Source: Candidatus Solibacter usitatus (GTDB lineage Bacteria; Acidobacteriota; Terriglobia; Bryobacterales; Bryobacteraceae). Taken from it: a stretch of 33,275 nucleotides of DNA. The position numbers and the translations under genes are program-made. The stretch's first letter is position 1. Every line of letters starts with the position of its first letter. The stretch lies in NCBI GenBank assembly GCA_016213245.1, contig JACRBC010000090.1, forward strand, positions 1-33,275, given 5' to 3'. The notes beneath the pieces were generated by a model. That model ran no database searches. It was not told the DNA's origin and worked only from the letters and a program-made list of their open reading frames with translations. Positions 2,309 to 4,629 of this stretch are shown here, in pieces.

Positions 2309-2404
2309 AGAAGGCCCTGTGGCTGGGAGCCGCAGAGCCTTCTTTGAGGGGCTAGTGAGGGGCTGGGTCCCCTCACGGGATGTTTGAAGTCGATGACGAC
2401 TCAA
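2309..2404. repeat. Structured repeat, copy 1 (three hairpins)
   Basis: Three successive hairpins are visible. A: AGAAGGC (2309-2315) pairs with GCCTTCT (2337-2343); a C/A mismatch follows, then CTG/CAG, a U-G wobble and GGC/GCC around a TGGGA loop. B: GTGAGGGG (2355-2362) pairs with CCCCTCAC (2369-2376) around CTGGGT. C: AGTCG (2388-2392) pairs with CGACT (2397-2401) around ATGA, extended by pairs across a bulged A. The order, loops and spacing match copy 2 about 290 bases downstream. The region has no convincing ORF. The transcribed strand is not known. Confidence 0.6.
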
Positions 2405-2598
2405 TTGCCCTTCTTGGTGCACCTGGACTGCCAAACTCTCATCTACATGGAATCATGCGATTACCGGCGAGTCTTGTCATCGGGCGGGCTGGGTTGGGGC
2501 ATATGACTAGGGTGGACCCGGCCCATTGGGTGAGACTTCACACCCTCGAGTACGATTAGGTTTGGCTGACTCCCTGGAGGCTGGCCCTGAAAAGCGTA

Positions 2599-2695
2599 GA
2601 GGCCGTGTGGCTGGGAACCGCACGGCCTCCGTCAGAGGGGCTTGTGAGGAGCTGGGCCTCCTCACGGGGATGCAATTAAGTCGATGACGACTTAT
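2599..2695. repeat. Structured repeat, copy 2 (three hairpins)
   Basis: Hairpin A: GAGGCCGTG (2599-2607) pairs with CACGGCCTC (2621-2629), then a U-G wobble and GG/CC around a CTGGGAA loop. Hairpin B: GTGAGGAG (2644-2651) pairs with CTCCTCAC (2658-2665) around CTGGGC. Hairpin C: TAAGTCG (2677-2683) pairs with CGACTTA (2688-2694) around ATGA. Relative to copy 1, a G-C pair in B has become A-T and a C-G pair in A has become G-C, so pairing is kept. A run of seven T (2740-2746) lies 45 bases downstream on the + strand and could end a + strand transcript. Confidence 0.6.
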
Positions 2696-3771: not shown

Positions 3772-4629
3772 TCAGCCTCGTGTGGAGGCGGCGGGGATCT
3801 TCCTGAGGAGGTCGCTCATTTCGGCGATGCTTTCGGCGCCGATGGTGAAGCAATCGAGGACATCCTGGGCCAGCGCGAACTGGAGGCATTCGTCGGCCTT
3901 GTCGCGAAGCTTGCCGGCGCCGAGGATCTTCATGCCGATGATGCCTTTGCCGGCGGCCTTCATCTCCTGGAGCACGGGAATCACCTGGGCGGGCGGCCCA
4001 TCCATGGCGACACCGGCGGGGTTGAGGCGCGCCAGGTCCACCTCCACCCAAGGGGTGCGGGCGGCGGTCTTGAGCGCGGCCAGGGTGTGGCAACTGACGC
4101 CCTTGGTGCGAACGACGCCCTTTTCCTGGAGCTGGCTGATGTACTCCATGGCGCCCTTCTTGCGCTCGGGCCAGGTGCCGTCCATCATGCAGTGGAGCAG
4201 CAGGATGTCGATGTAGTCGGTACCGATCTCGCGCCGGAAGCGGTCGATGTCGGCCTTCATCTCGGCCTCGGTGGAGGCGTGGGTCTTGGACATGATGACG
4301 ACCTTGTCGCGGGGCACGCGCCTGAGGCCCTCCTTGACGTGGGCGTGGGTGCCGTACTGGTCGGCGGAATCCCAGAAGGTCAGTCCGTTGTCATGGCCGG
4401 CTTTGAGCAGGTCGCCGACGCCGCCGAGCCCAAGTTTCTTGGTCTGGTTGGAGGAGCCTCCGCCGCCGTTGGTGCCGGTACCCTGCGCCAGGCGGCTGAG
4501 GCGGATCTTGCGCGGGCCCAGCGTGACGATATCGGAGGCCTCTTTGCGGGCGCCGGCCAGCAGGTGGCAGGGGAAGGCGTTGAGACCGGCAAGTCCGGCT
4601 CCGGTGGTGAGAAAGGCGCGTCGTTGCAT
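3772..4629 (-). CDS. Tat-exported aldo/keto reductase
   Basis: The product is 285 residues. ATG 4629 is chosen because GGGAGG lies directly upstream and the frame then opens with a twin-arginine signal (MQRRAFLTTGAGLAG). Aldo/keto reductase landmarks are visible: DSADQYG with the catalytic Asp and Tyr, VIMSKTHAST with the Lys, and IDILLLHCM with the His. The typical NADPH-binding tail appears short, and IGAESIAEM replaces the usual IGxxxxxxL end. Substrate and cofactor are unknown; sugar-related neighbours suggest a carbonyl or sugar substrate. It is co-transcribed with the downstream binding protein. Export of a nicotinamide-dependent enzyme is unusual, so a tightly held cofactor is possible. 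Confidence 0.83.
   Translation of the reverse strand: MQRRAFLTTGAGLAGLNAFPCHLLAGARKEASDIVTLGPRKIRLSRLAQGTGTNGGGGSSNQTKKLGLGGVGDLLKAGHDNGLTFWDSADQYGTHAHVKEGLRRVPRDKVVIMSKTHASTEAEMKADIDRFRREIGTDYIDILLLHCMMDGTWPERKKGAMEYISQLQEKGVVRTKGVSCHTLAALKTAARTPWVEVDLARLNPAGVAMDGPPAQVIPVLQEMKAAGKGIIGMKILGAGKLRDKADECLQFALAQDVLDCFTIGAESIAEMSDLLRKIPAASTRG

Follow-up and report, generated by a model that had tools for sequence, protein, structure and literature searches.

A duplicated three-hairpin element in Candidatus Solibacter usitatus as a likely pair of C-rich small RNA genes related to Acido-1

What is encoded by the duplicated three-hairpin element at positions 2309–2695 of contig JACRBC010000090.1 (33,275 nucleotides (nt), called the window below), from the GenBank assembly GCA_016213245.1 of Candidatus Solibacter usitatus (Bryobacteraceae, Acidobacteriota)? 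An earlier annotation, made from the letters of this DNA alone (the sequence-only reading), had noted two copies of the element with stems in which both partners change, and had proposed selection on the structure of an RNA or of single-stranded DNA. The comparative evidence collected here suggests that the copies would be a pair of genes for trans-acting, C-rich small RNAs (sRNAs), the first of which (copy 1) would belong to a redox or anaerobic regulon dependent on sigma54; to this reading we assign a probability of roughly 0.7. Its sequence-supported parts are the structure, the strand, the promoter classes, the terminator, and an enhancer dyad common to the gene of a bacterial enhancer-binding protein (bEBP) and to respiratory genes.

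Both the duplication and the paired stem changes hold up. The copies, at 2311–2402 and 2599–2694, share the order A-B-C on the plus strand and are 82% identical (expectation value (E) 1.2e-16 in a sequence search of the source genome), and the two named pairs are indeed present: G2361–C2370 against A2650–T2659 in hairpin B, and C2317–G2335 against G2605–C2623 in hairpin A. Fold z-scores relative to shuffled sequences are −5.5 and −4.5 on the plus strand and −5.7 and −5.4 on the minus strand. A covariance model built from both window copies (R1), a step already proposed with the original description, was run on relatives and returned further copies and covariation: 65 matches in the window and in 45 loci of relatives, of which 52 form an alignment (A4), with nine weak opposite-strand matches to these copies, three partial ones (L027 twice, L050:1824) and L018:1410 left out. 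Under the three-hairpin structure, 91.6% of the cells in A4 pair, compared to 30–49% when the partners are slid by 1–3 columns, and 20 of the 26 pairs (seven of eight in the helix of hairpin B) show changes on both sides. Selection on RNA structure is hence well supported.

How widely is the element distributed? An initial blastn search of 151 genomes (the source and 150 relatives) gave matches in 35. A second model (R2), derived from A4, finds matches at E≤0.01 in 103 of 237 Bryobacteraceae genomes (67 of the 148 good ones), one to four in each positive relative. Scanned across the phylum, R2 matches 30 of 396 genomes, the source among them; the other 29 (best 31.1 bits, many partial) we read as chance. 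Five loci (L085, L086, L087, L098 and L100) resemble, by eye, ordinary terminators or coding DNA and were excluded before the promoter and U-richness counts. R2 matched neither the blastn hits in two genomes of the same order (G095 and G110; L053, L054) nor pattern hits from Myxococcales and Rhodobacteraceae records (L150, L174). When a collection was scanned with a 25-base pattern, 42 stretches came up, of which 24 bear the title Bryobacteraceae or Bryobacterales and one Paludibaculum; clear R2 matches also lie in records titled Arcobacter (L156, apparently the same as family genome G052) and Acidimicrobiia (L172, apparently G039), titles that look wrong. Altogether 77 R2 matches were gathered and 63 printed, nine from the same or near genomes, two cut by contig ends and three weak ones having been dropped. 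Within the source genome, whose assembly is 79% complete, no third copy was found, and six further matches of 14–23 bases (E 0.7–4.5) are chance. A transposon end, a repetitive extragenic palindrome (REP)-type repeat or a single-stranded DNA element, as the duplicated hairpins might suggest, is therefore disfavoured to the point of being negligible: there are two copies in the source genome and few in any relative, their promoter architecture is fixed, and a plasmid search gave no match.

From which strand is the RNA read? The original description had implied the plus strand, and while its structure stands, its strand probably does not. Most likely the minus strand encodes the RNA: beyond hairpin C there is a promoter of the sigma54 or sigma70 type, and hairpin A with its U-rich tail resembles a terminator. 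Sigma54 promoters have a −24/−12 consensus of the TGGCAC-N5-TGCA type, and this motif is found beyond hairpin C, on the minus strand, in many copies. Promoter scoring covered 110 copies, four of which lacked an anchor or enough upstream sequence; of the 106 scored, 45 passed for sigma54, 55 for sigma70 and six for neither. In 42 of the 45 sigma54 passes, GG-N10-GC lies 50–58 nt before the CATCC box, and the three at other distances are probably sigma70 copies. Among shuffled sequences, 2.1% pass the sigma54 test, applied anywhere in 80 nt, and 29% the sigma70 test, which is loose; the case for sigma70 therefore lies in the fixed distance and not in the score. In all 34 copies with the canonical CCCCUCC loop of the Acido-1 type, T[TAG]GAC[AC] lies 40–50 nt before the GCAT box. 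Printed copies with this loop also have upstream A-tracts and terminators composed of a GC-rich stem (GGCCCCGAG..CUCGGGGCC) and a U-run. The conservation of −24/−12 in the 44 sigma54-type upstream rows is by selection, since these rows were chosen for having the promoter; the unselected count is the 45 of 106. All 25 family genomes tested have rpoN and 24 have hfq, the genome without hfq being 62% complete.

A functional RNA read from the plus strand, the strand scored by the Rfam model of Acido-1 (RF01686), would agree with the T-richness, on the plus strand, of the far side of hairpin C as well, and the minus-strand pair counts given below lean that way. We consider it very improbable. The promoters of both classes, the enhancer and the terminator all fit the R2 strand, which is opposite to that of RF01686 at 60 of the 60 places common to both among the matches listed (the remaining 46 of the 106 Acido-1 places have no R2 overlap among these). 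Moreover, on the side where a plus-strand promoter would lie, 20 of 109 copies have a passing promoter of either class (nine for sigma54, 11 for sigma70), versus 100 of 106 on the other side.

Each copy looks like a complete minus-strand gene, consisting of promoter, hairpin C, hairpin B, C-rich linker and hairpin A as terminator. On this strand, copy 1 (sigma54 class) is predicted to occupy 2300–2407, with a start at ~2407 and a terminator tail at ~2300–2310. According to the 52-copy alignment and the fold, the first hairpin from the 5′ end is C (2387–2402), followed by hairpin B (2355–2376), whose loop contains CCCAG, by the conserved C-rich linker UAGCCCCUCAAAG (2342–2354), single-stranded in the fold and the likely seed, and by hairpin A (2311–2341) as the terminator stem. 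GCCCCTC within the linker is invariant across the 52 copies. Upstream, promoter scoring places the sigma54 −24/−12 promoter TGGCAGTCCAGGTGCA at 2418–2433. Beyond it, again on the minus strand, lie a proximal AT-rich block conserved in the aligned upstream regions (GTAAGTnnTTGAWTTC-like, 2449–2465) and, from the dyad scan, enhancer dyad 2 (weak, 2494–2511) and enhancer dyad 1 (GTGTGAAGTCTCACCCAA, 2526–2543). The AT-rich block, located between enhancer and sigma54 promoter in the 44 copies, is possibly the site of a bending protein. Besides the hairpins, the span 2309–2695 takes in this promoter and enhancer, both of which lie between the copies. On the plus strand, arms at 2296–2303 and 2416–2424 pair around copy 1, overlapping the sigma54 −12 box, and have no counterpart in the fold of copy 2.

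Copy 2 (sigma70 class) is predicted to occupy 2589–2700 on the minus strand, with a start at ~2700. Alignment and fold place its hairpin C at 2677–2694, hairpin B at 2644–2665 and the C-rich linker AAGCCCCUCUGACG at 2630–2643; the terminator stem, hairpin A, is at 2599–2629, followed by a CUUUUC-type tail to 2589. The sigma70-type promoter at 2707–2736 comprises TTGCAG (2736–2731), an 18-nt spacer and CATAAT (2712–2707), where the sigma70 test had scored the overlapping TGCAGA-17-CATAAT, and upstream of it lies an A-tract resembling an UP element (2740–2749). The promoter of copy 2 is thus outside 2309–2695 and extends the locus to ~2750. By eye, the sigma70 spacer is itself conserved (roughly AGRTCYGAAAYTGC) between the window and the sigma70-class copies, and it may be an operator for another regulator. 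When the minus-strand RNAs of copies 1 and 2 are folded alone, three hairpins form in each; CAUCCC, the CCCAG loop of hairpin B and the greater part of the GCCCCUC linker stay single-stranded. The sequence features of Hfq-type sRNAs are present: a conserved, unpaired predicted seed, a terminator U-tail, and hfq in the family. In some copies (L032, L036, L037 and L046), another hairpin stands in place of hairpin C; its 3′ arm is seemingly the TAGCAT box, a segment left unpaired when the window copies are folded.

Does the RNA act in trans, and by base-pairing? A cis-acting leader or riboswitch of the minus-strand epimerase gene downstream (1297–2184) would draw on a related gene downstream at six of 43 loci (cluster c0, its identity to the window gene judged by eye). 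No neighbour cluster, however, occurs at more than six of the 43 loci, and neighbours stand in both orientations, leaving the neighbourhood without a consistent partner; a terminator-like hairpin closes every copy, and copies in tandem have one promoter apiece. We deem this about as improbable as a plus-strand RNA. Alternatively, the sRNA might sequester a protein with affinity for C-rich or CCC-loop RNA, acting as a sponge without pairing to mRNAs, which would suit the CCC segments in both loops and the linker and the multiplication of copies in tandem. To our knowledge, these bacteria have no known protein of this kind; with hfq near-universal in the genomes tested and the invariant unpaired GCCCCUC suited to an mRNA seed, a sponge appears distinctly unlikely. 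CsrA binding to plus-strand loops was set aside by eye because the window hairpin B loops lack GGA.

Which activator would serve the sigma54 promoter of copy 1? A palindrome-constrained de novo search upstream of the 44 sigma54-type copies gave the dyad TGnGnGAAaTCnCCCA, with a score of 660 versus 296 in shuffled sequence. In the source genome, the sigma54-activator domain has 18 matches, of which 13 are strong, and among these 13 bEBP loci a dyad scoring at least 14 is found only at P0001 (G000:C53:6141-7484, minus strand), whose product has PAS, Sigma54_activat and HTH_8 domains, the last a Fis-type helix-turn-helix (HTH). This near-perfect dyad scores 19.8 and lies at −83 from the start; the highest score in 263 kb of DNA from sRNA regions is between 18 and 19. 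Dyads of at least 15 are located at −130 to −40 of the start codon in 26 of 30 P0001 orthologues, compared to a background of at most 10 such sites in the 263 kb, or ~0.1 expected in the orthologue search space. Close P0001 matches occur in 39 of 91 genomes, the source genome counted, at a cut-off of E 1e-130, so strict that distant orthologues may be missed. P0001 is present in 22 of the 23 genomes of the series G000–G054 in which sigma54-type copies were seen (the exception being G031), and in 42 of 48 chosen sRNA-bearing genomes. Since the latter include some whose inspected copies are all of the sigma70 type, P0001 should have other targets. The bEBP and the sRNA occur together in 31 genomes, the bEBP only in six, the sRNA only in three and neither in 15 (Fisher p 2.3e-6), figures that are only indicative, as related genomes count as independent, genomes are incomplete, and a weak sRNA match in G040 is included. 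The PAS region of 29 of the 30 orthologues contains a four-cysteine motif of the C-x5-C-x2-C-x3-C type, which may bind a metal or an iron–sulfur (Fe-S) cluster, and the PAS domain is perhaps an Fe-S sensor of oxygen or redox state. In the source genome, the P0001 gene adjoins multihaem cytochrome genes (G000:C53, L265); in several relatives (among L230–L259), a gene for a small, unnamed receiver-like protein is divergent from the bEBP gene.

What else might this bEBP control? The pattern TGNGNSAAWTSNCNCA gave five strand-hits at three places in the source genome (two with the reversed-pattern control) and 51 in eight relatives (control, 10). At 16 of 28 dyad loci screened, a −24/−12 box lies 40–220 nt away; with a background of 21% at 4434 random positions in the same loci, chance would account for about six of the 28. 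Respiratory or Fe-S genes lie downstream of eight of the 16. These include genes for cytochrome bd subunit I (L279), pyruvate:ferredoxin oxidoreductase (PFOR; L286), ferredoxins (L277, L284), an Fe-S protein and, after it, a molybdopterin oxidoreductase (L288) and, by eye, a further Fe-S protein (L272). In the source genome, they comprise an Fe-S protein with a TtrA-like molybdoenzyme after it (L262, L264), and cytochrome c with a TtrB-like Fe-S protein beside hypB (L260, L263), the TtrA/TtrB-like names resting on scores below the NCBIfam cut-offs. The 16 also include two small proteins without a family beside the bEBP (L266, L289) and the sRNA itself (L290). An identical 16-mer, TGCGGCAAATCGCGCA, was seen in six genomes (G063:C8, G033:C27, G035:C18, G020:C26, G037:C59 and G006:C1:8095903) and may reflect conserved coding sequence, not a site for a regulator.

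Several observations weigh against a minus-strand sRNA pair with copy 1 under P0001. The genomes that supply the copies are related, so the copies are not independent. Minus-strand pairing includes 27 G-U and 43 A-C cells, partly through alignment error and shared ancestry, and U-richness separates the strands poorly (80% versus 60% of 100 copies). The dyads of window copy 1 are weak, scoring 10.9 (dyad 1) and 8.8 (dyad 2) of a possible 22. Among 22 later copies, outside motif building, nine have a correctly placed −24/−12 box scoring at least 9, and only five of these nine have a dyad of at least 14. Twelve of the 28 dyad loci are without a nearby −24/−12 box, and five of the 16 with one show no evident respiratory link, about the chance number. 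Finally, four genomes with sigma54-type copies (G031, G081, G284 and G285) have no P0001 match at E 1e-130, and all 30 orthologues read GAFTDA instead of GAFTGA, a variant shared by one other bEBP locus of the source genome (L223). These last two points would be consistent with a bEBP other than P0001 activating copy 1, the P0001 dyad then being coincidental or that of a wider class. We hold this to be unlikely, given that P0001 stands alone among the 13 strong loci and that most of its orthologues keep the dyad.

Together, this suggests a scheme in which each copy would be a minus-strand gene of ~105–112 nt for a trans-acting sRNA, the RNA consisting of hairpin C, CAUCCC, hairpin B with its CCCAG loop, the unpaired GCCCCUC linker and hairpin A, which with the U-rich tail would end transcription. 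Copy 2 would be transcribed from its sigma70-type promoter, and copy 1 driven by sigma54, its upstream enhancer of two TGnGnGAAaTCnCCCA dyads being bound by one bEBP. This protein (PAS with four cysteines, AAA+, Fis-type HTH) would probably also control its own gene as well as genes for micro-oxic or anaerobic electron transport. With a redox-type signal on, the sRNA would be made, and its exposed C-rich segments, perhaps assisted by Hfq, would pair with G-rich Shine-Dalgarno regions and repress unneeded mRNAs in the manner of FnrS or RoxS/RsaE. Within this scheme, we infer the binding of the bEBP to the dyad, the redox signal, the targets and the anti-Shine-Dalgarno action. A full redox circuit of the Bryobacteraceae, wherein the PAS bEBP and sigma54 activate cytochrome bd, PFOR, molybdoenzymes and an Acido-1-type sRNA as the counterpart of FnrS, with the bEBP doing the work of FNR and the sigma70 paralogue providing a basal level, is tentative, and we would put its odds somewhat below even.

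Is this a known RNA? Acido-1 was published in 2010 as an orphan motif and a likely noncoding RNA of Acidobacteria (PMC2864571). The sequence-only reading had recognised no named RNA class and had suggested a test for Acido-1, which proved useful. In the window, Rfam at gathering score gave no match; RF01686 had none at E≤10 in 2200–2800 and none at E≤0.01 in the source genome, and the window copies do not reach its membership threshold of 50 bits. It scores 48.0 bits in the relative L025, just under that gathering score, and 56.2 bits in G210; canonical copies score as high as 86. It matches 57 of 237 family genomes, 30 above the cut-off, the source genome not among them. Judged by these relatives, the window element belongs to RF01686 in a wide sense, although the model leaves the window copies themselves unscored. 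Like the window element, Acido-1 has hairpins A and B joined by a conserved linker, occurs in Acidobacteria and has no fixed neighbour gene. The linkers differ in part (ACUCAGAGGG-type in Acido-1, TTTGAGGGG in copy 1 and TCAGAGGGG in copy 2, on the plus strand), as do the hairpin B loops (CCCAG in the window copies, CCCCUCC in canonical ones). Further differences are the strand, the Acido-1 model being opposite to the gene proposed here, the added hairpin C, where that model has A and B only, and the sigma54 promoter and enhancer. In the literature searched, which covers few subscription journals, nothing was found on Acido-1 function; the term occurs only in PMC2864571 and PMC6337395, and the phrase 'Acido-1 RNA' is absent. 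The same literature gave no paper on Bryobacteraceae and small RNA, none on Acidobacteria, enhancer binding protein and sigma 54, and, for Acidobacteria, small RNA and sigma54, only a plant-microbiome review.

On this reading, the orphan Acido-1 would be assigned to a strand and given a start and an end, two classes of promoter, a likely regulator and a candidate regulon, and so become directly testable. If true, the reading would correct the Rfam entry, bring a sigma54-controlled sRNA to the Acidobacteria, where regulation by RNA has received little study, and hint at how these soil bacteria could link oxygen or redox state to gene control. The sequence features of sigma54-dependent sRNAs are present, namely a fixed −24/−12, an enhancer (with weak dyads in the window) and rpoN. 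In Vibrio, the Qrr sRNAs are likewise present in several copies and controlled by sigma54 and a bEBP, albeit a different one, and no Qrr family is among the Rfam matches. FnrS and RoxS/RsaE are sRNAs tied to redox or anaerobic metabolism, with C-rich seeds in RoxS/RsaE, and are under other regulators, with no known role for sigma54; the likeness is perhaps one of role, sequence comparison being limited to Rfam scans. By analogy, the closest known design is Pxr of Myxococcus, which has an apparent upstream sigma54 promoter, a predicted triple stem-loop and tandem diverged paralogues, sits downstream of nla19 and blocks development (PMC5568312). Copy 1 has the sigma54 promoter and the three stem-loops of Pxr, a likeness in build rather than in compared sequence; unlike Pxr, its neighbours vary, and its regulon looks respiratory.
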